From positions 248,001 to 312,000 of the forward strand of contig NZ_VOOS01000001.1 in NCBI RefSeq assembly GCF_007993035.1: a DNA stretch of 64,000 bases, given 5' to 3'. Under the pieces are notes generated by a model, which was not told the origin of the DNA, made no database searches, and saw only the letters and a list, made by a program, of their open reading frames with translations. A program made the translations under genes and the position numbers. How positions within the stretch are numbered: position 1 is the stretch's first letter; each line of letters opens with the position of its first letter. The DNA comes from Vicingus serpentipes. GTDB lineage: Bacteria; Bacteroidota; Bacteroidia; Flavobacteriales_E; Vicingaceae. Shown here one piece after another: positions 14,469 to 64,000 of this stretch.

Positions 14469-14836
14469 TGAAAAACTTTTTTGCTATATTATTTGTATTG
14501 CTAATTGCAAGCTGCGGAAACGAAAGCGAACAACTCAGTAAATATGATACAGACTTTTTAAGGGCAAAAGAATCGGTAAGAAATTACATGAAAGAGAACC
14601 TTAAAGCTAATGAAGTAATTATTGAGGGAACGATTGGCGAATTAATTTATTTTACCCCTCCTATTGAATTAATAAATGCAAAAGACTCTACGATAAAATA
14701 TATCCATTACGAACAACAACATTTTGCACCTACACATAAAGATAGCATGTACCTTAAATGGAATTGGAATTTTTATAAGTTAGATGAAGACTTTAAGGTT
14801 ATAAATGTTACTCACCAGCCCGAAAAAAAAGATTAA
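14468..14836 (+). CDS. small lipoprotein
   Basis: A 122-residue protein with a lipoprotein signal: hydrophobic segment then LLIASCGNE, so Cys16 would be lipidated. The mature part is hydrophilic with no family I recognise. It overlaps the stop of the sensor-phosphatase by one base (TAATG), so the two are translated from one transcript, and the lipoprotein may act with that sensor at the envelope. No signal for cell-surface export is obvious. Confidence 0.7.
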   Translation: MKNFFAILFVLLIASCGNESEQLSKYDTDFLRAKESVRNYMKENLKANEVIIEGTIGELIYFTPPIELINAKDSTIKYIHYEQQHFAPTHKDSMYLKWNWNFYKLDEDFKVINVTHQPEKKD

Positions 14837-14916
14837 ATATTACAATACCCATAAGTTGAAATTATTGATTAACTTAGAAAAATAAGCTATAGTTAAACAA
14901 CTTAAAAACAATTGTA

Positions 14917-15075
14917 ATGGAAGATAAATGGGAATTTTACAAAGACAAAAGTGACGAATGGAGATGGAGAAGAACGGCTAGTAATGGTAGAATTGTAGGC
15001 GCCTCTTCCGAGGGATACAAAAACAAACAAGATTGTATTAATAATGCCATAAGAAATGGGTATTCTAAAGAATAA
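14917..15075 (+). CDS. YegP/DUF1508-family small protein
   Basis: A 52-residue protein beginning MEDKWEFYKDKSDEWRWRR, followed by GRIVGASSEGYKNK and DCINNAIRNG. This is a single copy of the DUF1508 (YegP) repeat, whose two halves are a WxWR-type strand and a helix after 'GYxxK'. YegP proteins usually have two repeats; one-repeat versions exist. It is short but the family match is strong. It follows the lipoprotein by 80 bp with no evident terminator. Function unknown. Confidence 0.75.
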   Translation: MEDKWEFYKDKSDEWRWRRTASNGRIVGASSEGYKNKQDCINNAIRNGYSKE

Positions 15076-15133
15076 AAGAAACCCTTTTTATAATATTATC
15101 TTTTTGACTTCTGCTTAAATTGGGGTTAGGAAA

Positions 15134-15271
15134 TTACTTAAAAAATGCTAAATAAATAGCCAATAAAGCAATTAGTATGGCTGGTAAAAATAATTTTAAA
15201 CCATACTTTTTATATAAGGGAATCCAATTTAACCCTTGATTATGTGCTGAATCGTTTCCTTCAATTTTCAT
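15134..15271 (-). CDS. 45-residue single-pass membrane micro-protein
   Basis: An ATG-started minus-strand frame of 45 residues. A polar N-terminus (MKIEGNDSAHNQGLNWIP) leads to a basic stretch (YKKYGLK) and one hydrophobic helix (LFLPAILIALLAIYLAFFK) to the stop. The arrangement fits a small inner-membrane protein with the N-terminus in the cytoplasm. The next upstream feature is tRNA-Met and its terminator on the same strand. No family recognised; the layout argues for a real gene but does not prove it. Confidence 0.5.
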   Translation of the reverse strand: MKIEGNDSAHNQGLNWIPLYKKYGLKLFLPAILIALLAIYLAFFK

Positions 15272-15335
15272 CTTACAAAATTAATCATTATTCAGAATCT
15301 TCCCCACTCCTTTGCTCCACTGCAAAGCATAAAAA

Positions 15336-15360
15336 AAGCAGTTACTTTTTGTAACTGCTT
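15336..15360 (-). terminator. Rho-independent terminator after tRNA-Met
   Basis: A perfect 10-bp stem (AAGCAGTTAC / GTAACTGCTT) with a 5-nt loop. On the minus strand a run of T follows directly. It lies 12 bases past the tRNA 3' end. Confidence 0.85.
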
Positions 15361-15371
15361 GATTTTTAGTG

Positions 15372-15445
15372 TAGCGAGAAGGAGATTTGAACTCCTGACC
15401 TCCGGGTTATGAATCCGGCGCTCTAACCAACTGAGCTACCTCGCC
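15372..15445 (-). tRNA. tRNA-Met (CAT)
   Basis: On the minus strand the 74 bases fold as a tRNA: acceptor GGCGAGG pairing with the 3' strand TCTCGCT (G-U at two positions), D-arm AGCTCAGTTGGTTAGAGC, anticodon loop TTCATAA with CAT at its centre, and T-arm AGGAG-TTCAAAT-CTCCT. CCA is not encoded. A CAT anticodon can be elongator Met, initiator Met or, after lysidine modification, Ile. The first acceptor pair is G-U rather than the mispair of initiators, which favours elongator Met. A terminator follows. Confidence 0.93.
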
Positions 15446-15579
15446 ATTAAGAGTTTGCAAATATAGTAGTTTTGTCATTTTATCAACAATTTGTTTCATT
15501 TTTTTTTCACTTAATATTTTCATTCAATATTTTTCATATATTGCAGGCTAGTCATTATCAACCTAAAACACATATTGAG

Positions 15580-15960
15580 ATGTCTGATAAAGTAAAATAT
15601 GAATTAGAGTTTGTGATTAAATCTTCACCAAGCTTATTGTATAGTTATATAGCAACACCTAGTGGTTTAGGCCAATGGTTTGCCGACAATGTTAACTCTA
15701 GAGGAGAACTATTTACATTTATTTGGGATGGTGCAGAAGAGCAAGCAAAATTAGTGAGTAAAAAAACAAACTCATCAGTTAAGTTTAAGTGGGTTGCAGA
15801 TGAAGATCCTGAAACTTATTTTGAACTTAAAATACAAATAGATGATTTAACAAAAGATGTTGCCTTAATGGTTACAGATTTTGCTGAAGAAGACGAAGTA
15901 GATGAAGCTAAACAATTATGGGAAGCACAATTGGATAATTTACATTCAATTATCGGTTAA
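15580..15960 (+). CDS. START-like domain protein (AHSA1-type)
   Basis: A 126-residue soluble protein beginning MSDKVKYELEFVIKSSP. The motifs SPSLLYSYIATPSGLGQWFAD, FIWDG and a C-terminal helix (AKQLWEAQLDNLHSIIG) match the short START-like/AHSA1 helix-grip fold common in Bacteroidota. This fold forms a hydrophobic cavity for an unknown ligand. A longer frame from 15472 adds a segment with no conservation pattern; the internal ATG at 15580 gives the normal family N-terminus. Its stop overlaps the convergent DUF4294 gene through a shared TTAA. Confidence 0.8.
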   Translation: MSDKVKYELEFVIKSSPSLLYSYIATPSGLGQWFADNVNSRGELFTFIWDGAEEQAKLVSKKTNSSVKFKWVADEDPETYFELKIQIDDLTKDVALMVTDFAEEDEVDEAKQLWEAQLDNLHSIIG

Positions 15961-16613
15961 ATTTTACCTTCCTCAATAAGTAAGACTATTCGCTCAATCA
16001 TTTCATCTTCCTCATTTACTTGAGGATTGTATCGCGATTTTAAATTGGCACTATATAATCGTGCTACACCTTGATAAACAAAGGCTTTAAATCCACCACG
16101 CATTTCTTTTATAATGTCGTAAGTAGATTCGCCTGTTTCCCTATCAATTAATTTTACTAAAACCCTACCCTGCGTTACCGACATTTTTTTAATAACGTCG
16201 GTAAATTCCTCTTTCAATTCTTTTTCTCTTTGTTTTAATAAAAGTCTTCGCTTACGTTTCGATTTTATTTTCATCAACTCCTCATTGTATTTATTCAATT
16301 TAGCAGAAGCTAACTTTGCATAAGGATAAACTTTAAGAACATGGTAGCGTAATCGTCTAAACTCTTTATCCTTATCGGCATCGCCATAAGGTCTAACTCC
16401 TACAATACGCACTGGAGAAAAAGTATAGGCATATGTTGTATCTCCATCCACAACAAAAGCTTGAACAACAGTTCCATCTGGACGTTTTTTCTCCACAACT
16501 TGAAAATTAGTGGTGTCGGTATTTTTTAAGCTATCTGCTTTAGTTAAGTTTTGAGCAAAAGCAAAACCACTTAAAAGTAATAAGGTAAATAATATGTATT
16601 GTTTCTGTTTCAG
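15957..16613 (-). CDS. DUF4294 secreted protein, probable CTG start
   Basis: The conserved body (TYAYTFSPVRIVGVRP, then basic helices RLRYHVLKVYPYAKLA, KSKRKRRLLLKQREKEL, and KEMRGGFKAFVYQGVARLYS) matches DUF4294, a Bacteroidota-specific exported family of unknown role. An in-frame GTG at 16496 would give 179 residues without a signal peptide. The frame continues upstream and encodes a convincing signal peptide (KQKQYILFTLLLLSGFAFAQ) whose only plausible initiator is CTG at 16613-16611, after an in-frame TAA. I therefore place the start there (218 residues). An ATT start two codons upstream is possible. Confidence 0.75.
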   Translation of the reverse strand: MKQKQYILFTLLLLSGFAFAQNLTKADSLKNTDTTNFQVVEKKRPDGTVVQAFVVDGDTTYAYTFSPVRIVGVRPYGDADKDKEFRRLRYHVLKVYPYAKLASAKLNKYNEELMKIKSKRKRRLLLKQREKELKEEFTDVIKKMSVTQGRVLVKLIDRETGESTYDIIKEMRGGFKAFVYQGVARLYSANLKSRYNPQVNEEDEMIERIVLLIEEGKI

Positions 16614-16662
16614 GGTATTAATTTTAAATTAAAATTAGAACTTTACATTCAATTATTTATAA

Positions 16663-17427
16663 ATGGCTTTAACTAAGGACGAAATACATCTATTATTAGA
16701 AGAAAAATACGACCAATTTAATCGGGTTTCTTTTATCGAGTCTGACCCAATTTCTATACCACATCTGTTTTCTAAAAAAGAAGACATTGAAATTGCTGGT
16801 TTTATAAGTGCTACTATAGCTTGGGGGCAACGCAAAACAATTATAAAAAATGCCAACCAGTTTGTTGAGTTCATGGATATGGAACCTTTTGATTTTGTAA
16901 TGAACCATAGTCAAAAAGAATTAAATCGTTTTGCAGATTTTAAACATCGTACGTTTAATAGCATTGATGCGCAATATTTTATTACTGCCTTAAAACATAT
17001 TTACACCATTCATGGAGGTTTAGAGCAAGTTTTTGCTAAACACCCTAAAAATATGCAGCTTAGTATTTCTAATTTTAAACGTGTATTTTTTGAAGAGAAC
17101 CATCCTCAACGAACTCAAAAACATATTTCCGATCCATTAAAAAATTCGGCTGCAAAGCGAATTAACATGTATTTGCGCTGGATGGTAAGAAAAGATAAAA
17201 GAGGAGTAGATTTTGGTTTGTGGAATAAAATTGATGCAAAAGATATTATGTGTCCATTAGATGTCCATTCTGGTAATGTTGCTCGAAAACTAGGTTTATT
17301 AACCCGAACACAAGACGATTGGAAAGCAACAATTGAATTAACTGATAGTTTAAAACAATTTGATATTAACGACCCTATTAAATATGACTTTAGTTTATTT
17401 GGCTTGGGAGTTTTTGAAAAATTTTAA
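16663..17427 (+). CDS. TIGR02757 (DUF2400) family protein
   Basis: A 254-residue soluble protein. It has the family features: SDPISIPHLFSKKEDIEIAGF near the N-terminus, ATIAWGQRKTIIKNA, KRINMYLRWMVRKDKRGVDFGLW near residue 165, and MCPLDVHSGNVARKLGLLTR. The C-terminal half resembles HhH-GPD DNA glycosylase-like folds, but biochemical function is unknown. Families of this type occur throughout Bacteroidota. It is followed without a gap by a small membrane-protein gene and a cupin, all on the plus strand. Confidence 0.85.
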   Translation: MALTKDEIHLLLEEKYDQFNRVSFIESDPISIPHLFSKKEDIEIAGFISATIAWGQRKTIIKNANQFVEFMDMEPFDFVMNHSQKELNRFADFKHRTFNSIDAQYFITALKHIYTIHGGLEQVFAKHPKNMQLSISNFKRVFFEENHPQRTQKHISDPLKNSAAKRINMYLRWMVRKDKRGVDFGLWNKIDAKDIMCPLDVHSGNVARKLGLLTRTQDDWKATIELTDSLKQFDINDPIKYDFSLFGLGVFEKF

Positions 17428-17586
17428 ATGAAACAAAATCAAGGAATAGCACATTTAGCTAGTATTTTTGTTTTACCTGTTTTGGTGATATCAATTTTTT
17501 ATGCGCCAATTTGGTTGAAAATTATTTTAGTCTTTATATTAATAGCAGCTGCTATTTATTTATGGAAAAACATTATAAAAAAATGA
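17428..17586 (+). CDS. 52-residue two-helix membrane micro-protein
   Basis: An ATG directly abutting the previous stop (TAAATG) opens a 52-residue frame: polar start MKQNQGIAHLAS, first hydrophobic helix IFVLPVLVISIFYAP, second helix WLKIILVFILIAAAIYLW, and a basic end KNIIKK. Its TGA overlaps the ATG of the following cupin gene (ATGA), which is strong evidence of translational coupling and that this is a real gene. No family recognised. Confidence 0.7.
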   Translation: MKQNQGIAHLASIFVLPVLVISIFYAPIWLKIILVFILIAAAIYLWKNIIKK

Positions 17587-18086
17587 CACTAGATTACTTA
17601 CAAATTGTAAATCAATTAGAAATGCTTCCCCATCCAGAAGGTGGTTATTATAAAGAAGAATACAGAAGTAAAGACATTATTCCAAATGCAGCTTTACCTC
17701 AATTTTCTGGTGATCGAAATTTTTGTACAAGCATCTATTTTTTATTGACTTCTGAAAATTTTTCGGGCTTTCATCGAATTAAGCAAGACGAAATATGGCA
17801 TTTTTATAGCGGTTCTCCCCTAGCTGTTCATGTTATTGATGAAGAAGGAATTTATACCAAACACATTATTGGCATGGACATCTTAGATGGTAAATACCCA
17901 CAATTAACAGTGCCTGCAAATTGTTGGTTTGCCTCTAGCGTTGTTAACGAAAACGATTATTCGTTTGTAGGTTGTACCGTTGCTCCTGGTTTCGATTTTG
18001 ATGATTTTGAATTAGCTAAAAAAGAAGAACTTTCAGCTATTTACCCTCAACATAAAAGTATTATAGAAAAATTAACGAGAATTTAA
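17583..18086 (+). CDS. cupin superfamily protein, DUF985 type
   Basis: A 167-residue protein beginning MTLDYLQIVNQLEMLPHPEGGYYKEEYRS. The LPHPEGGYYxE motif, TSIYFLL, FHRIKQDEIWHFYSG and the C-terminal CTVAPGFDFDDFELA match the DUF985 (Cupin_5) family, a beta-barrel related to sugar-binding cupins. A longer frame starting at 17511 would run through the upstream micro-gene in another frame and add unconserved residues; the ATGA overlap at 17583 sets the start. Its stop overlaps the convergent ABC-F gene through TTAA. Ligand unknown. Confidence 0.88.
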   Translation: MTLDYLQIVNQLEMLPHPEGGYYKEEYRSKDIIPNAALPQFSGDRNFCTSIYFLLTSENFSGFHRIKQDEIWHFYSGSPLAVHVIDEEGIYTKHIIGMDILDGKYPQLTVPANCWFASSVVNENDYSFVGCTVAPGFDFDDFELAKKEELSAIYPQHKSIIEKLTRI

Positions 18087-19945
18087 GCAAATTCAGATAA
18101 GGTTAACCATCTATCAGTTTTTTCATCTAATTGAGCCGTAATTTCCCCCAGTTCTTGCGTTAATCTTAATAATTCTTCATGATCAGAAACACTATTTACT
18201 AGTTGCTCATTTAATTTCTCTTTTTGTTCTTCTAGTTTTGGTATTTCCTTTTCAAGGTTTTCAAACTCTAGCTTTTCTTTGTAAGCCAGTTTAGTTTTAG
18301 GTTGTTCTTTTACTACTTGTTTCGGCGCCTCAACTTTTACAGGTTTTATCTTAGCTTGTTCTTCTAATTCTTTTCTATCGTTTCTGTAGTCAGTATATTT
18401 TCCTAAATAATCTTTTATTTTTCCATCTCCCTCAAACACGAATAAATGATCAACCAACTTATCCATAAAATACCTGTCGTGAGTAACTACAATTAAACAT
18501 CCTTGAAAATCATTTAAAAAATCTTCTAACACATTCAATGTCATCACATCCAAATCGTTGGTTGGCTCATCTAAAATTAAAAAATTTGGGTTTTTCATTA
18601 AGATGGTCAACAAATACAATCTTCTTCGCTCTCCCCCACTCAGCTTTGCAACCATGTTGTAATGCATATCTTTTGTAAACAAAAACTTTTCTAGCATTTG
18701 AGCAGCAGTCATTACTTTGCCTTTTGCCAATGGAATAATTTCGGCAATATCTTTTATGGTATCTATTACTCGTTTATCATCTTTTAAATTGATACCATTT
18801 TGAGTATAATAACCATAAACAACTGTTTCACCAGTATCAATTCCCCCTGAATCTGGTTGTTGAAGACCAGTTAGCATATCCAAGAATGTAGATTTACCCA
18901 CTCCATTTTTACCAACTATTCCAACTTTTTCAAATCGCTTAAATACATAACTAAAATCTTCTAAAATCGTTAAATCGCCAAAGGCCTTTTTAACATGATT
19001 TAGTTCTAATATTTTACTTCCTAATCGGGTAACATTTACTTCAATATCAACTTTACTTTTATCTAATTTTTGATGTGCTGTTGCTTCTGTTTTATAAAAA
19101 GATTCTTCTCTAGATTTTGCTTTTGTGCCCCTTGCTTTTGGCATCCTACGCATCCACTCTAATTCCTTCTTATAAAGATTTTTAGCTTTATCTACATGTG
19201 CTTCAAAATTCTCTATCCGTTCTTCTTTCTTTTCTAAGTAATAAGAGTAGTTACCATTGTATTTATACAATGATTTATTATCAAACTCAATAATTTCGTT
19301 ACACACACGCTCTAAAAAATACCTATCGTGGGTAACCATTAAAATAGTCACATTTTCTTTCGTTAAATACCCTTCCAACCATTCAATCATATCCAAATCA
19401 AGATGATTGGTTGGCTCATCAAGAATAATAAAATCAGGCTCTTCTATTAAAACTTGTGCTAAAGCAATTCGCTTTAGCTGCCCACCTGATAATTCTCCAA
19501 TTTTACGTTCTAAATCATGGATATTTAATTGACCTAAAATCTGCTTTATTCTAACTTCATAATCCCATGCTTTAAGAGTATCCATCTGCTCAAATGCTTT
19601 TTGCATTCTGTCATTATCATCCGGATTAAGAACCGCTTTTTCGTACTCTTTAATGGCTTCAATTTCACCAGAAGTAGATTTAAAAATGGTTTCACTAATG
19701 GTGTGCTGGTCTTCAAACTCTGGAGTTTGATGTAAATAACCAATTTTTATATCATTACGAAAAACTACATTTCCAGAATCATAACCTTCTTTACCAGCTA
19801 ATATCTTTAAAAAGGTAGACTTACCCGTTCCATTTTTAGCTATAAAAGCTACTTTTTGACCTTTGCTTATTCCAAAGGTTATGTTTTCAAACAACACTCT
19901 ATCGCCATACGATTTAGTTAATGCTTCAACTGAAAGATAATTCAT
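18083..19945 (-). CDS. ABC-F family ATPase (Uup-like)
   Basis: A 620-residue cytoplasmic protein with two ABC domains and no membrane segment. Domain 1 has Walker A AKNGTGKST (about 37-45), signature LSGGQLKRIALAQ and Walker B ILDEPTNHLD. Domain 2 has GKNGVGKST, LSGGERRRL and ILDEPTNDLD. An interdomain linker (about 240-310) and a charged C-terminal coiled coil (about 545-620, rich in E/K) place it nearest Uup/EttA-type ribosome- or branched-DNA-associated factors. The exact subgroup is uncertain. Confidence 0.92.
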   Translation of the reverse strand: MNYLSVEALTKSYGDRVLFENITFGISKGQKVAFIAKNGTGKSTFLKILAGKEGYDSGNVVFRNDIKIGYLHQTPEFEDQHTISETIFKSTSGEIEAIKEYEKAVLNPDDNDRMQKAFEQMDTLKAWDYEVRIKQILGQLNIHDLERKIGELSGGQLKRIALAQVLIEEPDFIILDEPTNHLDLDMIEWLEGYLTKENVTILMVTHDRYFLERVCNEIIEFDNKSLYKYNGNYSYYLEKKEERIENFEAHVDKAKNLYKKELEWMRRMPKARGTKAKSREESFYKTEATAHQKLDKSKVDIEVNVTRLGSKILELNHVKKAFGDLTILEDFSYVFKRFEKVGIVGKNGVGKSTFLDMLTGLQQPDSGGIDTGETVVYGYYTQNGINLKDDKRVIDTIKDIAEIIPLAKGKVMTAAQMLEKFLFTKDMHYNMVAKLSGGERRRLYLLTILMKNPNFLILDEPTNDLDVMTLNVLEDFLNDFQGCLIVVTHDRYFMDKLVDHLFVFEGDGKIKDYLGKYTDYRNDRKELEEQAKIKPVKVEAPKQVVKEQPKTKLAYKEKLEFENLEKEIPKLEEQKEKLNEQLVNSVSDHEELLRLTQELGEITAQLDEKTDRWLTLSEFA

Positions 19946-51751: not shown

Positions 51752-52366
51752 ATGTCTTTCAAAAAGTTATTACCCTGTATTAAAGAAAATTTAGAAAAAT
51801 TTGAATTTGAAAATCCTAAACCTATACAAAAACAACTTATCCCTAAAATTAAAGGTGGTGCAAATTTTATTGGTATTGCACCAGAAGGAGCAGGTAAAAC
51901 GACTAATTTAATTATCAGTACAATCCAAAAATTAAATGGTGAGGCCTTTGAAGATGTTCCTCGAGCATTAGTTTTCGCAAAAGATAAACAGGCAGTTTTA
52001 AAACTCGAAGAAGAGTTTAATAAATGGATTAAGAATACCGATTTACGAATTGCCATTGCTTATGAGGAAGGTAAAATTGATGATCAGAAAGATGCTATTT
52101 ATGTAGGCTCAGACATCGTAATTGGAACCCCAAAGCGTTTGAATAAAATATATTTTCAAAATGGATTAAACTTGGCTAACCTTCAACTTTTAATAATAGA
52201 AGATGCTGAATTTTTAATAGGAACAAGTTTTCATACTGAAATTCATAGAATTGTAGAAAGTTTAGCAAAATGCCAATATTTAGTTTTTGCAAATAAGTTT
52301 GATCATAAGATTGAAAAGTTACAAGAACTTTATATGGAAGATGCCCAAGTTATTGACATTGAATAA
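51752..52366 (+). CDS. orphan DEAD-box N-terminal (RecA1) domain, degenerate
   Basis: A 204-residue protein covering only the first RecA-like domain of a DEAD-box helicase: an F and Q-motif region (FENPKPIQKQLIPKI), Walker A PEGAGKTT near residue 48, IGTPKRLNKI (motif Ib) and a Walker B region reading IIEDAEFL in place of DEAD. There is no second RecA domain and no frame beyond the stop that could supply one. Only one of the two acidic/Ala residues of the DEAD box fits, so ATP hydrolysis and unwinding are doubtful. It may be an RNA-binding relative, or a truncated helicase under conservation. Confidence 0.78.
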   Translation: MSFKKLLPCIKENLEKFEFENPKPIQKQLIPKIKGGANFIGIAPEGAGKTTNLIISTIQKLNGEAFEDVPRALVFAKDKQAVLKLEEEFNKWIKNTDLRIAIAYEEGKIDDQKDAIYVGSDIVIGTPKRLNKIYFQNGLNLANLQLLIIEDAEFLIGTSFHTEIHRIVESLAKCQYLVFANKFDHKIEKLQELYMEDAQVIDIE

Positions 52367-55771: not shown

Positions 55772-55804
55772 AAAAAGCCTCCCAGAATAATCTAGAAGGC
55801 TTTT
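55772..55804 (-). terminator. hairpin, probable former tRNA terminator
   Basis: AAAAGCCT (55773-55780) pairs with AGGCTTTT (55797-55804); AGA/TCT inside the loop can extend the stem imperfectly. On the minus strand a run of T follows. It lies 2 bp from a tRNA 3'-end-like sequence, where a tRNA terminator is expected. Confidence 0.6.
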
Positions 55805-55805
55805 G

Positions 55806-55821
55806 TACTCGAGATGGGAAT
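55806..55821 (-). other. candidate attachment site (tRNA 3'-end fragment)
   Basis: Read on the minus strand, the sequence ATTCCCATCTCGAGTA fits the last 16 bases of a tRNA: end of the T-loop, T-stem strand CCCAT, acceptor strand CTCGAGT and discriminator A. The bases to its right do not supply the rest of a T-arm. A terminator-like hairpin follows at once on the left. This is what remains on the chromosome side when an element enters a tRNA 3' end. The whole tRNA should lie at the element's other end, outside the window. Confidence 0.6.
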
Positions 55822-55958
55822 ACCAAGGGTTAAATTCGATACTTTTAACAAACTCAATAAAATCATTAAAAAATCTTATAAATTCAACAATACAAAGGTT
55901 TTTATATTATTTTAACTAATATATTTAAGTTGAAGTAAATCTAAATAAATTTAACAAC

Positions 55959-55990
55959 GGTTTGTAATAGGTTTGTAATAGGTTTGTATT
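55959..55990. repeat. three 11-bp tandem repeats upstream of the integrase
   Basis: GGTTTGTAATA occurs at 55959-55969 and 55970-55980, then GGTTTGTAtt at 55981-55990. Position between the attachment site and the integrase promoter suggests arm-type binding sites for the recombinase or excisionase, or an operator. The middle copy also supplies the promoter's TTTG. Confidence 0.75.
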
Positions 55991-56003
55991 TTTAGTATTT
56001 TTG
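55972..56003 (+). promoter_or_regulatory. integrase promoter
   Basis: TTTG (55972-55975), 20 bases, then TATTTTTG (55996-56003) match the Bacteroidota -33/-7 promoter. The -33 box is inside the second tandem repeat, so a protein bound to the repeats would block transcription. The -7 box overlaps a TTG at 56001 that might be taken for the start. Confidence 0.6.
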
Positions 56004-56027
56004 ATATGTTCAAACAAAATCTTAAAA

Positions 56028-57332
56028 ATGGCAACTGTAAATTATCGACTGGTAAAAATCAAGACCTCATCAAAAAGTCAAATTCACGTTTATATCTCTT
56101 TGGGGCGTGGTAATGTTATCTTAAAAAAAACAGGGTTCACAATTAGCCCGAATGACTGGAGTACGACAACTAAAAGACCAAAGCAAAACGATGCACACTT
56201 AAAAAATCTATTCAATAAACTAAACAAACTATCAAATTACATTTACGAACAAATTAATGAAGCCGAAATAAAGGGCGAAATAATTAACTCATTTTGGTTA
56301 GAAAATGTTATTGATACACACTTTAATCGATTAGGCAAAATCAACCTCAACAATAATTTACTTACTACACAAATAGAATACATAATTGACAATGCAAACA
56401 CTCGTAAAATAAAAGGGACCTCAAAAGTGGGGTTATCACAAAACAGGATTAAAGGCTATGTTACTTTTTTCAACCTCATCTTGCGATATGAGAAACACCT
56501 AAAATGTAAAATAAGATTAACCGATATTAATAACTCATTTGTTGATAAATTCACAAACTGGTTAATGAATAAAGAAAACTATTCTATTAACTATTCAGGT
56601 AAAATGTTAGACAATCTAAAAACGATTTGTTTAGATGCAAAAAAAAGAGGTATCAAAATAAATGACTTTGCACCTAATATAGAAAGTTTTAAAGAGATTA
56701 AAAAAGACAAAGATATTATTACACTTTCATTTGATGAACTTGAAATAATAAGAAACAAAGAACTAACAAAAGACCATTTAATTAATGTTAGAAAATGGTT
56801 GTTAATCGGTTGTGAAATAGGACAAAGAGGGGGCGACCTTTTAAACCTAACAAAAGACAATCTTAGATACATTGAGAATAATTTAGTAATTGATATTACT
56901 CAACAAAAGACTGGCAAAAATGTAACTATACCTATTTACAAAGATTATATTGAGTATATTCTTACAAAAGAATTTCCTTACAAAATATCAAACCAAAAAT
57001 TTAACCAGTATCTTAAAGACCTATGTAAAGAATGTAATATTAATGAGGTTGTATCTGGCAAAAAGTACGACAACAAAAAGAAACGTAAAGTTTCGGGTAA
57101 TTTCCCTAAATATGAGTTAATTACATCACACTCTTTAAGACGTTCTTTTGCAACGAATTACTATAAACACATACCTACTCCAATACTAATAGAAATAACA
57201 GGACACTCAAAAGAAAGTATGTTTTTAGAATACATCGGAAAACCAAAAGACAAAGACGAAAACGCAAAACTGTTTTTGAAACTGGTTAAAGAAATGAATA
57301 ATAAAACAGAAAACAATTTAAAAGCAGTATAA
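56028..57332 (+). CDS. tyrosine recombinase / integrase
   Basis: A 434-residue site-specific recombinase. The N-terminal arm-binding domain starts MATVNYRLVKIKTSSKSQIH; a SAM-like core-binding domain covers about 95-205; the catalytic domain has Arg267 (IGQRGGD), His368 and Arg371 (HSLRRSF), His393 (GHSKES) and the nucleophile Tyr402 (FLEYIG). This is the five-domain-arm type of Bacteroidota conjugative and mobilizable elements. The ATG at 56028 is chosen; an earlier TTG at 56001 falls in the promoter. The stop overlaps the RteC-like ATG by one base. Confidence 0.93.
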   Translation: MATVNYRLVKIKTSSKSQIHVYISLGRGNVILKKTGFTISPNDWSTTTKRPKQNDAHLKNLFNKLNKLSNYIYEQINEAEIKGEIINSFWLENVIDTHFNRLGKINLNNNLLTTQIEYIIDNANTRKIKGTSKVGLSQNRIKGYVTFFNLILRYEKHLKCKIRLTDINNSFVDKFTNWLMNKENYSINYSGKMLDNLKTICLDAKKRGIKINDFAPNIESFKEIKKDKDIITLSFDELEIIRNKELTKDHLINVRKWLLIGCEIGQRGGDLLNLTKDNLRYIENNLVIDITQQKTGKNVTIPIYKDYIEYILTKEFPYKISNQKFNQYLKDLCKECNINEVVSGKKYDNKKKRKVSGNFPKYELITSHSLRRSFATNYYKHIPTPILIEITGHSKESMFLEYIGKPKDKDENAKLFLKLVKEMNNKTENNLKAV

Positions 57333-58066
57333 TGGAAAATTGTAAAGAAATAGAAATACTTTTATCAAATTCAGAATTAAAAGAAGAGATAGAAATTATT
57401 GATTTTTTGGGAGTTGAAGAGAAAAGCTATAAACTTACAAATGAAATATTTTTTTATGAAAATCTACAAATGTTATACTACAAAAGCAATGAAGAAAACT
57501 ATTTTTGGCAATATTGCAATCTTTCAACATACAAAAAAACATTCGATGAAAGATTTGAAATCTACAAAAAAACATACACTGATGCAGAATTAAACGATTT
57601 CATATCTAAAGAATTAACATTACTCAATAGTTATTTAAAACATGATTTCGACGGTAATGTTATTTGCTTATATTATACTTCAACAATTAACCCAGATATA
57701 AAATTCCCTATATATAATGATTGTTTAGATGAATTTAGAGATGTATTAATTTTATCTAACCAAAAAAAAATAAGTTTCTTGGAAAAAGAAATAACTAAAC
57801 AGATTAAAGTAATAAACTCTTCAAATATTAAATTTACTGGAACTCAAACCGATTTTATTGAATTAGTTAAAGCACTAATTGAGAATGAAAGTCTAAAAGG
57901 AAACAGTCAAAAAGAAATAATTGAAACACTTTCAAATTTCCTAAACATTAAGATTAATAATCCTGATAAATTGATACAAGATTTAAAGAAAAGAAATAAC
58001 GGTAGTGAAACCTTATTTTTAGATTCCCTCAAAGAAACCCTATACGATTATATTAATTCTACTTAA
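57332..58066 (+). CDS. RteC-like protein
   Basis: A 244-residue protein whose last ~80 residues (KFTGTQTDFIELVKALIE, LSNFLNIKINN, LKKRNNGSETLFLDSLKETLYDYI) match the RteC C-terminal region. In Bacteroides conjugative transposons RteC switches on excision genes by binding an upstream site. The N-terminal ~150 residues are lysine- and asparagine-rich with no recognised domain. It is translationally coupled to the integrase (one-base overlap) and lies just ahead of the excisionase-like gene, the arrangement expected for an excision regulator. Confidence 0.75.
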   Translation: MENCKEIEILLSNSELKEEIEIIDFLGVEEKSYKLTNEIFFYENLQMLYYKSNEENYFWQYCNLSTYKKTFDERFEIYKKTYTDAELNDFISKELTLLNSYLKHDFDGNVICLYYTSTINPDIKFPIYNDCLDEFRDVLILSNQKKISFLEKEITKQIKVINSSNIKFTGTQTDFIELVKALIENESLKGNSQKEIIETLSNFLNIKINNPDKLIQDLKKRNNGSETLFLDSLKETLYDYINST

Positions 58067-58078
58067 ATAAAAAACAAA

Positions 58079-58102
58079 CGTTAGTTACCCCGTTAGTTAC
58101 CC
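58079..58102. repeat. two 12-bp tandem repeats before the excisionase-like gene
   Basis: CGTTAGTTACCC at 58079-58090 and again at 58091-58102, followed by a C-rich run (CACCCCCC). RteC-type activators bind paired repeats upstream of xis genes, so this is a candidate site for the RteC-like protein just upstream. Confidence 0.7.
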
Positions 58103-58131
58103 TCACCCCCCTTTAAACAGTTGTTATTTAG

Positions 58132-58160
58132 CCTAAAATAATATTAACAAATATTTTAGG
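58132..58160. repeat. inverted repeat next to the excisionase-like start
   Basis: CCTAAAATA (58132-58140) and TATTTTAGG (58152-58160) form 9-bp arms around 11 bases, ending 2 bp before the ATG at 58163. It could be an autoregulatory operator or an mRNA hairpin that hides the start codon. Confidence 0.65.
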
Positions 58161-58162
58161 TT

Positions 58163-58441
58163 ATGAAACAAATTCAATTATTAAATGTAACTCCAGACGA
58201 GTTAAAAAAAGAAATTACAACTGATTTAAAAAATCAATTAGATGAGTTCTTAAAGAACTTTAAACCAAAACAACCAAATGAATATTACACACGCAAAGAG
58301 GTTGCAGACCTTTTTAAAGTGGATATTTCTACAATTCATAATTGGTGCAAGTCTGGACGATTGAAGCCTCTCGGCATAGGTAATAGAGTGTATTTTTTAA
58401 GGTCTGATATAGACAAGTGTTTAACCCCCTTAAATTCTTAG
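58163..58441 (+). CDS. excisionase-like helix-turn-helix protein
   Basis: A 92-residue protein with a winged-helix HTH_17 domain at about 41-88 (YYTRKEVADLFKVDISTIHNW ... GIGNRVYFLRSDID, with the recognition helix STIHNWCKSG). This is the Xis/TorI-like form found beside Bacteroidota tyrosine integrases. It probably binds the element's ends and drives excision, or regulates its own and the downstream replication gene. The leading helix (about 1-40) is charged and may mediate dimerisation. Confidence 0.9.
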   Translation: MKQIQLLNVTPDELKKEITTDLKNQLDEFLKNFKPKQPNEYYTRKEVADLFKVDISTIHNWCKSGRLKPLGIGNRVYFLRSDIDKCLTPLNS

Positions 58442-58445
58442 TCTT

Positions 58446-58844
58446 ATGAATACAGGCAATAATAACTTCGTTCGACATATTTACAAGATAAGTAAAGAAC
58501 TAAAATCTTATACAGTTTATGATTTAGTAAAGGTTGAGAACTCTAAACAACTACTAACAGAAATAGCAAGAATAGAACCTTTTTTAAACTATTCTAATGC
58601 AAAGAACTTTAACGACTACTTTAGGATTAAAAATAAATCGAGTTGGCAAAAATCCAGTTGTATTACTGGAGTAAAACCAACAACAATAGAGGGTTTATTC
58701 TTCGGCGATTGTACAAGGGCTAACCTTATCGGTAATACTTCAAAAAGTCTTTTATTTTTCTACTTCGATAAAGACAAAAAGAGGTTAATTGTAGACGTTT
58801 TATGGACTATTACCCACACAACGACAATTTACTTAATAAGCTAA
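58446..58844 (+). CDS. element protein of unknown function
   Basis: A 132-residue basic protein starting 4 bp after the HTH gene, so in the same operon. It has a tyrosine/lysine-rich N-terminal half and the strands TTIEGLFFGDCTRA and NTSKSLLFFYFDKDKKRLIVDVLWT. No family recognised. Its place between excisionase-like and replication-initiator-like genes is like that of accessory mobilisation or replication proteins. Confidence 0.65.
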   Translation: MNTGNNNFVRHIYKISKELKSYTVYDLVKVENSKQLLTEIARIEPFLNYSNAKNFNDYFRIKNKSSWQKSSCITGVKPTTIEGLFFGDCTRANLIGNTSKSLLFFYFDKDKKRLIVDVLWTITHTTTIYLIS

Positions 58845-58959
58845 TAACAGGCTATAAAATCAATTAGAGAGGATAAAAAAAGAGGGATTGTTCAAGCCCC
58901 TCAATTTATTCAAAGTTGTTATACAGGCAACTGTAATAACATTATCAAAGTTACTTATT

Positions 58960-59901
58960 TTGATTGACTATCTTAAAATAAAATTGGTTAACTATTCGGC
59001 AAATAATTTACTTGAAAGTAACTTATTAAACTTTGGTAGAAATATAAATGAGGCAACAGGCGAAATAATTAACACAAATAAAAAAGGCGAAACAATAACG
59101 CCTCATCAAACTGCATACTACAAAGGGTTAACTTTTGTTATTTATGATACTGGGAGTATTTTTATAAGTGGTTCAATTCATAAATACTATTACAACGGTT
59201 TACACAACTTCAAAGATTTTGGCATTCATGAAATTAATCATGTTCTAAATGATTTTAAAGACAATTTTAAGATAACACCCGAACAATGTATTTTAAAAAA
59301 TATTGAGCTCGGGGCAAACTTAATACCACCAATAAAAACAGAAACCATTTTAAACGGTTGTTTACTCCATAAAACAAAACCATTTGAATTTAAATATAAT
59401 TCGGATGAGGGCAAATACCTACAATGCTCACATTCTCAGTATTGGGTTAAGATATATGATAAAAGAAAACACTATCAAAAACACTTTAATATTGAAAATG
59501 ATATACTTCGTTTTGAGTTAAAATTTAATCGAATGGAGTACTTCAACAAGAAAGACATATACACACTTAAAGACCTTATAAAATCCAATTTAAGGCGGTT
59601 TAAAGACCGCTTACTTACTGAATGGAATAATGTTTTATTTTACGATAAAACAAGTATTAATAAAAGCCAAAAACAACTCCAATATAGCAACCCATATTAT
59701 TGGTTAGAACTTAAATCACAAAACTTTAAATACCACAGAAACGAATTAAATAAACTAATTAATCAAAACCCTAAAAACATCAAAGGACAAATTACCAAAC
59801 TACTATCTAAAAAGATTGATATAGTAAATTCAAAAACTAACCAAAATGACACTTTATATATATTGTCAAATCGGATAGTAAATAAACCAAGTAGAATTTA
59901 A
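58960..59901 (+). CDS. replication-initiator-like protein
   Basis: A 313-residue protein counted from a TTG (IDYLKIKLVN follows), which gives the usual N-terminus for this group; a TTG at 58888 would add 24 hydrophobic residues. Features: YDTGSIFISGSIHKYYY, the helix NIELGANL, WVKIYDKRKHYQKH with a candidate catalytic Tyr, and ILRFELKFNRMEYF. This layout resembles the rolling-circle/Rep_trans initiators of phages and plasmids (II/X-like) found on flavobacterial integrated elements. I infer that the excised circle can replicate. A few bases after its stop the strand switches. Confidence 0.65.
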   Translation: MIDYLKIKLVNYSANNLLESNLLNFGRNINEATGEIINTNKKGETITPHQTAYYKGLTFVIYDTGSIFISGSIHKYYYNGLHNFKDFGIHEINHVLNDFKDNFKITPEQCILKNIELGANLIPPIKTETILNGCLLHKTKPFEFKYNSDEGKYLQCSHSQYWVKIYDKRKHYQKHFNIENDILRFELKFNRMEYFNKKDIYTLKDLIKSNLRRFKDRLLTEWNNVLFYDKTSINKSQKQLQYSNPYYWLELKSQNFKYHRNELNKLINQNPKNIKGQITKLLSKKIDIVNSKTNQNDTLYILSNRIVNKPSRI

Positions 59902-59919
59902 TTGATTGGTTTAAAAAAT

Positions 59920-60432
59920 CTACTTAGCATAACGGTTTAACCATTTAATGACAACATAAACCAATCGAATTGACCAAGCAGAAAAGAAAAAAGGAAAAGG
60001 ATTTCTAAAAAACCAAATAACATCATTATGAAGTCTATTTCTTAATGGCTCCCAATAAACAAGTATATATAATAAAAAATCTAAAGCAAATATCATTATA
60101 ATAATAATTGCTTCCCTTTTAAAATTTATAGCAAATTTTCTTTTGAAATCAGAATAATCTTTTTCTTTTTTAGAAACCTCAACTTCTACTTTTTTAGAAA
60201 ATTCTACCTCAACTTTCTCTGATTTTGACACAGAAGGAATTGGGGGTGGTACTGATATTAACAGTGACATTAAATCATCTACTTCTTTTGCTTTTTTCCA
60301 ATCTGGAAATCCTTTAGACCATACTAAAGTTTCATCAGTAATTCTGATGCTTTTAGCTATCAGTTCTTCCTTTGTAAAAGGACCTTCTTGTTTATTATCT
60401 ATAACAATAAAATATTTTTTGTTATTTATCAT
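59920..60432 (-). CDS. GYF_2-domain membrane protein
   Basis: A 170-residue protein with an N-terminal GYF_2 domain (KYFIVIDNKQEGPFTKEEL ... TLVWSKGFPDWKKAKEVDDL, about 5-55), a proline patch (SVPPPIPS) that itself resembles a GYF ligand, a short charged coiled coil (KVEVEFSKKVEVEVSKK), and two hydrophobic helices (about 110-132 and 143-165). GYF domains bind proline-rich peptides. It overlaps the metalloprotease-MORN gene by 4-11 bp and is translated right after it, so the two products probably act together. Confidence 0.8.
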   Translation of the reverse strand: MINNKKYFIVIDNKQEGPFTKEELIAKSIRITDETLVWSKGFPDWKKAKEVDDLMSLLISVPPPIPSVSKSEKVEVEFSKKVEVEVSKKEKDYSDFKRKFAINFKREAIIIIMIFALDFLLYILVYWEPLRNRLHNDVIWFFRNPFPFFFSAWSIRLVYVVIKWLNRYAK

Positions 60433-62125
60433 AATAATCAGTGTTTGCTATATAATAATCAATATTATTTTTCTTAACTCCATATTTATTAAACAAATAA
60501 ATTATTTCATCCTTAAAAATTAATCGATCACCTACATATATTCGTCGATTTTTATTGATTATCTCTTCAATTTCCAGTTTACTAAATATCATCTCAATTT
60601 TTTGAAGGCGGTATTCATGAAAAAACTTTTTACTATTAACAATTCCAACTGTTGTTTCTTTTCTTATTACTGAAAAATACCCAGGTTTTGAAACTAATAA
60701 GCCATATGAAGTTTCAGGAAACATTAAATCTCTACCAATCAAAAAACTACCATTTACATCACTTTCAACAACAATGGAACTACCATCAGTACCTACCATT
60801 TTAACTTTAACATTTGAAAGTGGAATAGAGTCTAAATCTAATACTGTGCCTGAAATATTATAAAATTGAATAACACTAATAGGATGATCGGTTGAGTCAA
60901 CATCATTAACAACATCATTAACTATGTAATAACCTTGTACCAAGGCATAATTATCAAACCTACCAACATAAACATTCCCAACATGATTAATCACTTTACC
61001 TTTAACTATAAGACCATCAATAAAATCACCTTTTTGATAAGTATGACTTGTTAAAATTGTAAATTGACCTGTAACATTACCTTTTTTATCTATATAATCA
61101 TCACAATCACCAGACAAACAACCTCCTCTTATTCTTGGTATTTGTTCACCTTTTATCCAAAAACCACTACTATTTCCATTTTCTACACTAAAAGTCCTTG
61201 CAAAACCATCTTTTAAATCATTTTCCCATGTACCAGAATAAAAAGATGAATTATTATAAACCATTTTACCAAAGCCATCTTTTTTCCCTCTATCCCAATT
61301 ACCCTTATATTTACTTCCATCAATATAAGTTCTCTCCCCTAAACCCTTTTGAAAATTATTCTCCCACATTCCTTTATATATATCACCATTATTCCAATAA
61401 TAAATACCATGACCGTTTCTTTTCCCATTTAAAAATTCACCTTCATATGTGCCATTTTTATATTTTTTAATTCCCTGACCAGCTAAACAATCTCCTTTGA
61501 GACAAATATTTACAGCTCCTGACTTTGCTTTGTCGTAACCATTTTTAATGGCTTGCAACCTTTTATCAAGCTTTGGATGAGTACTATTTAAATCATTATC
61601 ATTATTAGACACTATTGTTAATGCACTTTGACATTGCTCTAATGTCGCTCCAAGCTTCCCTAAGACAAACCCTGAAAACTCATCTGCCTCTAACTCTTGT
61701 TTTCTTCTTTCACTTAAAACTTTAGGCTCAATTGTTCCTGCAGAATATAATAAAGCCTCTACAGTATGTCCATTAATATGATGACCTATTTCATGGGCTA
61801 ATATTGACATCTTGCTCCAAGAATCAGAATTATTTGCAATACCATCTAAAAAACCCTTATCATACACAATGTATCTAACACCATTAAATGTTGTAGCAAA
61901 ACAATTCTGCATATCGTCACATGGCAACAAAACAAAACTTTTAGAAGCACCAATTACATCAAGTATCTTACTAACCGAAACCTCAGAGTATTTGTCTTTA
62001 GTTTGTGATTCAAAATCACAATAAAAATCCTCAAAACTGATTGTTTTATTGTAACCACAAATTTGTGCTACAGTAGAATTTAGAAGAAATAATGAAACTA
62101 TTAATATTGATAATATATTTTTCAT
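60422..62125 (-). CDS. secreted HEIGH metalloprotease with MORN repeats
   Basis: A 567-residue exported protein (signal LNSTVAQ). It has an M48-like zinc protease domain with HEIGHH near residues 111-116 and ELEADEF as likely third ligand, then at least four MORN repeats (GTYEGEFLNGKRNGHGIYY, GDIYKGMWENNFQKGLG, and two more, about 215-305), a second group of weaker repeats, a carboxypeptidase-regulatory-like beta-sandwich (about 425-500) and a charged C-terminal tail. The protease lacks the membrane helices of HtpX. The ATG at 62125 is preferred over TTG at 62131. MORN repeats usually bind lipids or proteins, so the enzyme may be targeted to a membrane. Confidence 0.85.
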   Translation of the reverse strand: MKNILSILIVSLFLLNSTVAQICGYNKTISFEDFYCDFESQTKDKYSEVSVSKILDVIGASKSFVLLPCDDMQNCFATTFNGVRYIVYDKGFLDGIANNSDSWSKMSILAHEIGHHINGHTVEALLYSAGTIEPKVLSERRKQELEADEFSGFVLGKLGATLEQCQSALTIVSNNDNDLNSTHPKLDKRLQAIKNGYDKAKSGAVNICLKGDCLAGQGIKKYKNGTYEGEFLNGKRNGHGIYYWNNGDIYKGMWENNFQKGLGERTYIDGSKYKGNWDRGKKDGFGKMVYNNSSFYSGTWENDLKDGFARTFSVENGNSSGFWIKGEQIPRIRGGCLSGDCDDYIDKKGNVTGQFTILTSHTYQKGDFIDGLIVKGKVINHVGNVYVGRFDNYALVQGYYIVNDVVNDVDSTDHPISVIQFYNISGTVLDLDSIPLSNVKVKMVGTDGSSIVVESDVNGSFLIGRDLMFPETSYGLLVSKPGYFSVIRKETTVGIVNSKKFFHEYRLQKIEMIFSKLEIEEIINKNRRIYVGDRLIFKDEIIYLFNKYGVKKNNIDYYIANTDYYDK

Positions 62126-62218
62126 AATCAAACTTATAAAATATGTATTTAAAATACAAAAGCAAATAAATACTACACTTAACAGTCAACAGGGGTATTT
62201 CTATTTTATCCAATTGAT

Positions 62219-62254
62219 AAGGGGGCTTACAAATGACAATTATCTACCCCCCTT
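62219..62254. repeat. G/C-run inverted repeat in AT-rich gap
   Basis: AAGGGGG (62219-62225) faces CCCCCCTT (62247-62254) around a 21-nt loop. The 333-bp stretch 62126-62458 is otherwise AT-rich and holds no clear gene. It also has a 44-codon plus-strand frame without a start (ending at 62466) that I do not call a gene. A terminator role is weak because no T-run follows. Confidence 0.5.
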
Positions 62255-62458
62255 TTCTATCTTAAATTTTCAATACAAAACTTACTTAAAACTTAAATAA
62301 TAAAACAATACTATATACCTATATAATATAAAGAGATTCAACTAATAAAAGAATAACTGCTAAATTAGTTTTAGAGATTGAAAAAGAGCTGGTTAAACCT
62401 ACTCCAATCTCTCATCCTTTAATAAAAATAAATCATACCAAAATGGAAAGAATATCTA

Positions 62459-64000
62459 TTAATTAAGGATTTTTATTTTTTGGGTAAACACCAAACTTTT
62501 TCCTTCTATAACTTTTATAAAAAACACTCCATCTTTAGCAAAACTATTAGTGTTTATAAAGTCATTTCCGTTAATCATTTCTGAAAAAACCATCTCACCT
62601 AATAAATTATAAACTTCAACTTTAAGATTATCATAATCTTTAGCATCAATATAGATTATATCTTTTGTTGGGTTTGGATAAACTGAAATATTTAAATTTT
62701 TGTGATAATCTTCAATATTAGTTACAAATGAAATGCAAGATGATGTATCAATACATCCATTTTGATTGATTTCTACAGCATAATTACCAATAGAATTTGG
62801 AATGAAAAATTGATTTGATTCACCCAATATGGGTTCAAAATTATTATCACAATTTAACCATTTATATAATGCCCCAGTCGCGTTTGAAAACAAAATATTT
62901 TGATTAACTGATACAGTAGTATCGACTAAATTTATAGTTAAATCAATAGTAATAACGCTATCGCAACCTATATGGTTTAGTAAAGTATCATTATATATAC
63001 CTGATGAATCCCAAACATAGTTACCGCTTGGTGAAGTATATGAAAAACATTCATTTAAAATTACGTTTGAAGTTGAAGGTAAACATCCTTCAAAATACTT
63101 TACATAAAAAGTTTGGGTTCCAGAAAGATTTAATTGACTTGGTGTAGGATCAAAATCAACACCTAATGTTGAGTTAATTTTTCCTGTTATATATATATTG
63201 CTTTGACTATCAATCAATATTTGTTGGGGAACATCACTATTTTGACCACCTATAACATTACTAAAAACATAATTTCTATTAGCATCATACTTAACAACAA
63301 AAATATCAAGTGAACCTTGACTTTGAGAAGGTGAAATATCATAATCAGTATTTAATAATATTTCATTTGTATACTCCCCATAAACATACAATTCATTAGA
63401 AGAATTTGTTACACATGAATTTGTTGTACTGTGTCCATTACCATTAAATACTTTTACCGAATTATAGTTTAAACTTGAATCTAAACTGAGTATAAACCCT
63501 GAATTTGTGAATTCAGAAGTTTTATAATCTACCCCTAAACCTGGGTTAAAATCAACTGTCTCTCTGAATCTACCCAACAGTATTAATTCGTTTGTTTCTG
63601 AGATATGAAAGTTTGTAGACTCATCATGATCTATGCCACCAATAGTAACTGCATTTAAAAAATTACCATTTAAATCTAATTTTAATAAAAATAAATCACT
63701 TTGACCATTTGTTGTTCTATTAATTAAATTAGATGGATTTGGATCAAGATCTATCGTTCCATTATACATCCCATAGATATATAAATTTTCATTTCCATCA
63801 ATTTTAACTGATCTACTAAAAACATATGAAGAAGAAATCTGCTTCACCCATAATAAGTTACCTGTAGTTTTGTCCAATTTTTGTATAAATAACCCAGAAG
63901 AATTTTCAGGGTACAAATAATAAGTTCCAATATTTGGATCAAAATCTGCTGAGTCTGAAAATTGACCAATTACATAAACACCAGTAGAAGTAGAAACTAT
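62459..64000 (-). CDS. T9SS-secreted beta-propeller protein, N-terminus outside window
   Basis: At least 513 residues are in frame from the right edge to the stop. They comprise repeated propeller-type blades (LFLLKLDLNGNFLNAVTIGG, IFVVKYDANRNYVFSNVIGG, each near a 'DPNP' or 'DFDPTPS' calcium-like loop), an Ig/PKD-like module (NSIGNYAVEINQNGC) and a T9SS sorting tail (VYPNPTKDIIYID ... FFIKVIEG). A TTG at 63916 is not the start, because the blade pattern continues to the window edge. The role is likely a surface or released adhesin-like protein. Confidence 0.88.
   Translation of the reverse strand: MVSTSTGVYVIGQFSDSADFDPNIGTYYLYPENSSGLFIQKLDKTTGNLLWVKQISSSYVFSRSVKIDGNENLYIYGMYNGTIDLDPNPSNLINRTTNGQSDLFLLKLDLNGNFLNAVTIGGIDHDESTNFHISETNELILLGRFRETVDFNPGLGVDYKTSEFTNSGFILSLDSSLNYNSVKVFNGNGHSTTNSCVTNSSNELYVYGEYTNEILLNTDYDISPSQSQGSLDIFVVKYDANRNYVFSNVIGGQNSDVPQQILIDSQSNIYITGKINSTLGVDFDPTPSQLNLSGTQTFYVKYFEGCLPSTSNVILNECFSYTSPSGNYVWDSSGIYNDTLLNHIGCDSVITIDLTINLVDTTVSVNQNILFSNATGALYKWLNCDNNFEPILGESNQFFIPNSIGNYAVEINQNGCIDTSSCISFVTNIEDYHKNLNISVYPNPTKDIIYIDAKDYDNLKVEVYNLLGEMVFSEMINGNDFINTNSFAKDGVFFIKVIEGKSLVFTQKIKILN

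Follow-up and report, generated by a model that had tools for sequence, protein, structure and literature searches.

A putative 8.9-kb integrative element at tRNA-Leu(UAA) of Vicingus serpentipes and covariation of arm-type repeats with integrase residues among its relatives

The stretch of DNA analysed here (hereafter the window; 64,000 nucleotides, C1:248001-312000, where C1 is contig NZ_VOOS01000001.1 of Vicingus serpentipes) holds near its right end a series of genes that begins at a remnant of a tRNA gene. This remnant, a 19-bp copy of the 3' end of tRNA-Leu(UAA) that we designate attL, lies at 55801-55819 on the minus strand, together with a hairpin and T-run (55772-55804, minus strand) predicted to be the original terminator of the host tRNA-Leu gene, pushed away by the insertion. 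To the right follow three GGTTTGTA(A/T) repeats spaced 11 bp apart (55959-55989, plus strand, starting at 55959, 55970 and 55981), likely the left arm-type sites, and the gene of a tyrosine integrase of 434 aa (56028-57332, plus strand). Further genes on the plus strand encode an RteC-domain protein (PF09357; 57332-58066) that is a possible excision regulator, an excisionase-like HTH_17 protein (58163-58441), a 132-aa protein of unknown function that had no Pfam match (58446-58844), and E5, a protein of 313 aa (58960-59901) predicted to be a rolling-circle replication initiator or a related relaxase. Cargo genes on the minus strand encode a GYF_2-domain protein (59920-60432), an M48 peptidase with MORN repeats (60422-62131) and an SBBP beta-propeller protein with a T9SS sorting tail (62459-64000), whose start lies beyond the window end. 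The integrated element would occupy 55801-64000 of the window and run on to C1:312742, 742 bp beyond its end.

A preliminary description of this DNA had singled out a 16-mer (55806-55821) that, read on the minus strand, comprises the last part of a T-loop, then CCCAT as T-stem strand, CTCGAGT as acceptor strand and the discriminator A. This reading holds, as do the terminator-like hairpin it placed directly beside the 16-mer (folding at -19.7 kcal/mol, z -5.2) and the lack of a tRNA body nearby, the sole tRNA found in the window by ARAGORN and Rfam being a tRNA-Met at window position 15.4 kb. The element was further expected to reach past the window to an intact tRNA, and a second core copy is indeed found 8.9 kb to the right, at the 3' end of a complete minus-strand tRNA-Leu(UAA) gene (C1:312728-312812), followed rightward by genes for tRNA-Gly, tRNA-Arg and tRNA-Pro. 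The 16-mer has a single exact copy in the assembly (2.92 Mb, 34 contigs), and its sole one-mismatch site is the 3' end of that tRNA gene (C1:312729-312744). What was predicted there, the same 16 or more bp within a complete minus-strand tRNA, is thus present as a repeat of 19 bp, while the 16-mer itself carries one mismatch. The exact repeat, TTTTGTACTCGAGATGGGA, starts at C1:303801 and C1:312724, 8,923 bp apart, with the right copy (C1:312724-312742) 724-742 bp beyond the window end; within the window it spans 55801-55819, so the last two bases of the 16-mer fall outside it. Chance was ruled out as the source of the repeat by an expectation of ~1e-5 copies of the 19-mer (2.92 Mb, both strands, base composition).

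By the Islander principle, an island is recognised from an intact tDNA, a displaced fragment of it on one and the same replicon, and an integrase gene lying between the two; this is the arrangement found here. Terminator-like hairpins lie 3' of both core copies, with outer stem letters alike and a different inner stem and loop, and therefore the element seems to carry its own terminator next to its tRNA 3' end. When the host flanks were joined in silico, a complete tRNA-Leu(UAA) with the left hairpin resulted.

The window's integrase was aligned with its sister, and a scan of named genomes with this alignment yielded 17 related loci, 15 of them titled Flavobacterium. Thirteen of the 17 have a repeated tRNA 3' end 210-271 bp upstream of the integrase start and, closing the element on the other side, an intact minus-strand tRNA, the targets being tRNA-Leu(UAG) (7), Leu(CAA) (2), Arg(UCG) (2), Leu(UAA) (1) and Cys(GCA) (1). 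Including that of the window, 14 elements are delimited in this way, measuring 3.6-11.6 kb with the tRNA. The integrase cluster is found in all 14, the HTH cluster in 13, E5 in seven, the RteC-domain protein in four and the 132-aa protein in three. Hairpins with z < -3 are present on the element side of 14/14 and on the host side of 13/14; the host-side hairpin of L129 passes with 55 nt and fails with 50 nt, and that of L123 fails altogether. L120, L124, L126 and L130 have no tRNA-delimited right end (L120 and L124 are on contigs of 8.2 and 7.3 kb); tRNA-Leu-like left fragments were seen by eye in the first three and none in L130. Among 80 genus-level loci (genus g73), which were taken from the best matches listed and overlap the named loci, 40 have a repeat of at least 13 bp at a tRNA or tmRNA and the other 40, some on short contigs, have none. 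The integrase tree, in which two targets were labelled from the left fragment alone, places the three Leu(CAA) elements in one supported group and ten Leu(UAG) and Arg(UCG) elements in another; arm motifs are mixed within both groups, and L118 and the window's element, both at Leu(UAA), do not fall together.

Some of these elements have contents of their own. L127 of Flavobacterium fluvii (13229-18963) is a tRNA-Leu(CAA) element with a small terminase subunit (PF03592, Terminase_2), a tape measure protein (PF20155) and DUF6291, and is possibly a phage satellite. L129 (2811-4832) encodes a protein with BT4734-like_N and AAA_25 domains in place of the E5 cluster, which suggests that replication modules are exchanged between these elements. 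The smallest delimited element, L123 (9743-13367; 3.6 kb with the tRNA), has a Fic-domain protein beside the integrase, and an ORF of the HTH cluster was not found in it.

The preliminary description had also named an observation that would speak against an insertion, the same junction in relatives without the integrase; it was seen in none of 60 genomes, the window's own included. The 15-mer GTACTCGAGATGGGA is present in three of the 60 (twice in G000, twice in G028, once in G024). In G002, of the same genus, the tRNA-Leu is element-free and a homologue of the window gene at 51752 lies at 1.3 kb with no element between, in partial synteny only; in the stretches read of G001 and G003 (that of G003 ends 1.7 kb past the tRNA) a left-flank homologue was not found. 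In G028, a homologue of the window's SpoIIE-like gene (46% over 593 residues) lies to the left of the left junction, at 0.7 kb and separated from it by one ORF. The neighbourhoods in G002 and G028 support a presumed insertion between the left flank and the tRNA, but an empty allele from the same species did not turn up. The G028 locus itself (L100, contig C7, 7179-14784) has a tRNA-Leu fragment and an intact gene flanking a 7.5-kb cassette, with a 58-bp match reaching the anticodon loop. Judged from its ORFs, the cassette holds sugar-nucleotide-like genes (radical SAM, aminotransferase, glycosyltransferases, NeuA- and NeuB-like), and no integrase was recognised among them; since this junction and these genes differ from those of the window, we read it as a separate insertion. 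In G019 (L107, contig C18) the whole tRNA-Leu(UAA) gene occurs twice (2655-2739 and 13661-13745), about 11 kb apart, and between the copies lies an integrase 34% identical to the window's over the C-terminal part. A distant integrase (34% identical; L106, G013:C12) starts 238 bp from an intact tmRNA 3' end (15993, 16231).

Second copies of the tRNA-Leu(UAA) 3' part were found in the window's genome, G028 and G019 among 14 family loci with that tRNA (stretches of 5.6-20 kb, surveyed with a short query that missed the tRNA itself in two loci). Such repeated use of one tRNA in the family (3/14 loci) would be in keeping with two or more elements in tandem: an older one would have left the tRNA fragment at 55801, and a younger one, ending elsewhere, would own the integrase at 56028. 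We consider this highly improbable, as the 15-mer core occurs in the genome twice and no more, repeats like those before the integrase are found in the 17-kb locus only just inside both core copies, and the distances agree with those of 13 other elements. It is also barely conceivable that a misjoined contig has brought a tRNA fragment next to an integrase with which it has nothing to do: the assembly is a draft (34 contigs), but the contig in question measures 872 kb, and 13 loci of other genomes, several of them titled as named strains, show the layout again. We are nearly certain that the junction is one end, attL, of an integrative element of 8.9 kb, and that the element's integrase recombined a core no longer than 19 bp at the tRNA-Leu(UAA) 3' end. 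The left core copy and its hairpin would be the displaced 3' end and terminator of the host tRNA gene, and the tRNA gene at the right end would be whole because the element supplied its own copy of the tRNA 3' end and a second terminator-like hairpin. The reconstruction draws on what can be read directly in the nucleotides: the repeat, the intact tRNA, a hairpin at either end, the genes carried and the like layout in relatives.

Matches to PF00589 and PF13102 bear out the tyrosine integrase that had been noted at 56028. Residues R267, K294, H368, R371, H393 and Y402 are invariant in 18 integrases, and we take them to be the catalytic residues of the window's enzyme. Its N-terminus (residues about 1-45 forming the predicted arm-binding domain) was modelled with strands 3-10, 17-24 and 30-39 and a helix 56-82 (whole-model pTM only 0.47), a prediction that fits an arm-binding domain of three strands and a helix. 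In the mechanism we envisage, the catalytic part would cut the core while the N-terminal domain would hold the 11-bp-spaced arm repeats at both ends, so that the integrase would bridge core and arms as the lambda and CTnDOT integrases do. The HTH and RteC proteins might steer excision, and the Rep-fold protein might replicate or mobilise the putative excised circle.

This last role would fall to E5, whose start was shifted from the listed 58888 to a TTG at 58960 to fit homologues. E5 had no Pfam match above the curated cut-off and no useful family match, and among 46 genomes of the family it is present only in the window's genome and in G024 (38% identical). With its model (mean pLDDT 71, built from seven sequences), Foldseek placed four chains of 4cij on top (E 1e-4 to 7e-4, TM-scores only 0.32-0.45), and a second structure aligner returned 4cwe, 4cij and 4cwc (Z 12.0-11.3, 218-227 residues, ~4.5 A), followed by an unrelated fold at Z 6.7. 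The predicted fold is that of rolling-circle initiators, and E5 could serve replication or mobilisation because MobT relaxases are kin to the rolling-circle initiator family (PMC5704250). A canonical relaxase was not found by Pfam in the element, and mating-pore or coupling-protein genes were not recognised among its eight proteins, the last one scanned without its start. An ICE was rejected, as no conjugation genes were recognised in the element. Among the cargo, the M48 protein has matches in 49 of 60 genomes (own included), those in other genomes covering at most about 200 of its 569 residues. In PADLOC the HTH protein comes under mad1 (E 2e-11) and the M48 protein, as a weak match (E 0.002), under capP; we do not read them as defence genes because the NCBIfam HTH MAD1 match reaches 22.7 of 80 bits, far under the cut-off.

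An integrase, an excisionase-like HTH gene and a Rep would also be compatible with a phage satellite, and the HTH protein matches the small-terminase family phrog_57 (E 1e-5), while L127, a related element, encodes a tape measure protein and, by Pfam, a small terminase subunit. That the window's element is a satellite or decayed prophage rather than a mobilisable island is nevertheless unlikely in our view. Seven HTH, regulator or excisionase PHROG families outrank the terminase family for the HTH protein; four of the eight proteins match PHROGs at all (E <= 0.01), namely the integrase, the HTH protein and two that match families of unknown function, one of these also a metallo-protease; and no capsid, portal or tail family is among the element's PHROG matches listed. 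Viral contigs were scanned three times, with the initiator, with the integrase and with the integrase alignment, and no relative was confirmed.

The integrative element has repeats of a second kind, besides its core. The three left repeats have a partner pair at C1:312651 and 312662, which begins 77 bp from the far tRNA end, and a spaced TTTGTAA pair occurs in the 17-kb locus at these two places only. In each of the 14 delimited elements, two tandem repeats lie 54-93 bp upstream of the integrase start, and a pair that matches them lies 74-78 bp from the tRNA end. Left and right repeats differ by 0 to 3 mismatches over three 9-base comparisons (14 elements, stretches searched), and none of 200 shuffles in 2-base blocks matched the real agreement in any of the 14. 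Left and right arms show two mismatches in the window's element, three in L119, two in L123 and one in L131, and the left pair of L123 agrees more closely with the right ends of five other elements than with that of L123 itself. The motif varies between elements (GTTTGGCAA, GTTGGGCAA, GTCGGGCAA and others). A larger set contained 38 elements whose right end is delimited by a tRNA and whose left pair is resolved; base 4 agrees in one or both right repeats of 37 of these, and in both repeats of 36. Judging by their sequence and placement, the 11-bp-spaced repeats are likely arm-type sites. The left set does stand at a possible operator position, upstream of the integrase start, and might control int transcription instead; we hold this to be very unlikely, given that the matching repeats lie inside the far end, by the tRNA and away from the int promoter, and that the repeats covary with the N-terminal domain of the integrase.

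From this covariation it seems probable that the arm-binding domain reads the arm sites by a residue-to-base code. Residue 22 would read base 4 (R-G, Y-T, Q-A, S-C), residue 24 base 3 (S-T, R/K-G, I/V-C), residue 27 base 1 (R-G, Q-A) and residue 10 base 7, probably on the other strand (R-C, Q-T, K-A). Elements would then switch specificity by changing these residues along with the repeats at both ends, maybe in one exchange. The sample consisted of 21 usable loci out of 29 at class level (L137-L165), 22 of the first set and 80 at genus level (from the best matches listed), altogether 123 integrases, of which 101 remained at <95% identity and 90 after 11 without well-resolved arm repeats had been dropped. 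Readings were obtained for five of the 11 (R-G in L140 and L271, R-A in L160 and L163, R-C in L268), the others (L273, L274, L149, L153, L156 and L164) being unresolved.

The idea of Y-T and R-G pairs between residue 22 and base 4 was formed on the first 21 integrases. The 69 further ones (<95% identical to the first 21 and to each other, with scoring set after the sequences were seen) gave R-G 55 times, Y-T five, Q-A three and S-C once, against R-T in three and R-A in two; the Q-A and S-C pairs had not been predicted beforehand. Over all 90, the counts are R-G 68, Y-T 13, Q-A 3, S-C 1, R-T 3 (L255, L258, L261) and R-A 2 (L244, L257), with L241 and L138, whose two left repeats differ (G, A), counted by the first. 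For residue 24 and base 3 they are S-T 57, R-G 9, K-G 6, I-C 6, V-C 5, T-C 2, T-T 2, S-C 2 and S-A 1; for residue 27 and base 1, R-G 82, Q-A 5, K-G 1, V-A 1 and F-A 1; and for residue 10 and base 7, R-C 41, Q-T 37, K-A 7 and others 5. Ranked by mutual information over joint entropy (3,555 pairs, 395 positions), the 11 strongest residue-base pairs all fall within residues 10-34, the first outside having rank 12. The test was not blind, as later repeats and N-termini were seen before reference motifs and thresholds were fixed. The repeat register was chosen against reference motifs with base 4 masked and bases 1, 3 and 7 unmasked, and hence the pairing of residue 22 with base 4 alone is free of register bias.

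Shared ancestry was taken into account with trees. On a tree without the contact residues, 13 of the 16 changes at residue 22 coincide with a base-4 change on the branch (200 shuffles: mean 2.2, max 6), and coincident changes number 9/15 for residue 24 and base 3 (mean 2.6, max 6), 11/13 for residue 10 and base 7 (mean 2.7, max 6) and 3/4 for residue 27 and base 1 (mean 0.2, max 2). On a tree of the arm-binding region alone, where shuffles ignore relatedness, coincident branches against the shuffle maximum were 10 vs 4 (22 and 4), 10 vs 7 (10 and 7) and 3 vs 2 (27 and 1); the seven for residue 24 and base 3 were equalled by a shuffle (max 7). On a tree without the arm-binding domain, base-4 labels were scattered like shuffled ones (22 changes vs a mean of 20.8). 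The predicted structure has residues 20, 22 and 24 alternating on strand 17-24 and residues 32 and 34 doing so on strand 30-39, with residue 10 at the end of strand 3-10 and residue 27 in the turn that follows strand 17-24. Contacts of the R-G and Q-A type are standard in the major groove.

One pair of elements, L121 and L122, bears on how specificity might change. L121, from an uncultured Flavobacterium, combines Y22 with GTTTGGCAA, and L122, from F. frigoris, combines R22 with GTTGGGCAA. Their integrases are 93-99% identical in nucleotides 121-1080, while the right ends, the stretches from attL to int and the first 120 nucleotides are 85-87% identical and the motifs differ at both ends. In the excised circle the right end, the attL-int stretch and the start of int would be contiguous, and therefore one exchange could replace them all together. 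Against this simple picture, the end of the gene diverges too (87, 94 and 67% in three windows past nucleotide 1080). A switch of specificity by one exchange could be proposed from this one pair only. No earlier report of such a code or element group was noticed in the literature searched, a search that left most subscription papers outside.

In kind, the element is ordinary, a tRNA-targeting island as formalised by Islander (PMC4383910) and near NBU1 and the Riemerella 10K island. Regenerated tDNA and displaced fragment mark the two ends of Islander islands (PMC4383910), the same end design as in the window's element with no difference in principle; element-borne terminators seem untreated there, since the word "terminator" is absent from the main text of that paper. 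NBU1, a mobilisable element of Bacteroides, likewise has a tyrosine integrase (IntN1) at the 3' end of a tRNA-Leu gene, but also a MobP relaxase (PMC5704250), whereas no relaxase of this kind was recognised in the window's element. The latter differs in its Rep-fold protein, RteC-domain protein and T9SS cargo. NBU1 is reportedly of similar size.

Riemerella anatipestifer belongs to the same order as the window's host. Its 10K genomic island (about 10 kb) resembles our element in size and in an integrase of the tyrosine type next to a tRNA; its integration and excision were tested by experiment (PMC6764341). The island uses tRNA-Arg and a 53-bp repeat, compared with tRNA-Leu and 19 bp here, and the printed 53-bp att repeat ends on our reading in a hairpin and T-run (PMC6764341). 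IntCTnDOT-type recombinases, a subgroup of Bacteroidetes tyrosine recombinases with an N-terminal arm-binding domain, include NBU1 (PMC8138268); the accessible part of that account contains no residue-to-base code for arm sites. The integrase of Vicingus has features of the type, a PF00589 domain and what we presume to be the catalytic R, K, H-x-x-R, H and Y.

The junction offers a clean worked example of tRNA targeting in Flavobacteriales, with exact ends, and matched arm repeats at both ends can help in delimiting elements where the tRNA repeat is weak. The covariation may be the part that specialists do not expect, and it predicts, in a directly testable form, by which residue of the integrase each arm-site base is read. 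Should the code hold, arm specificity could be told from the sequence, which would raise the question why elements change it, for instance whether they thereby avoid cross-talk with co-resident elements.
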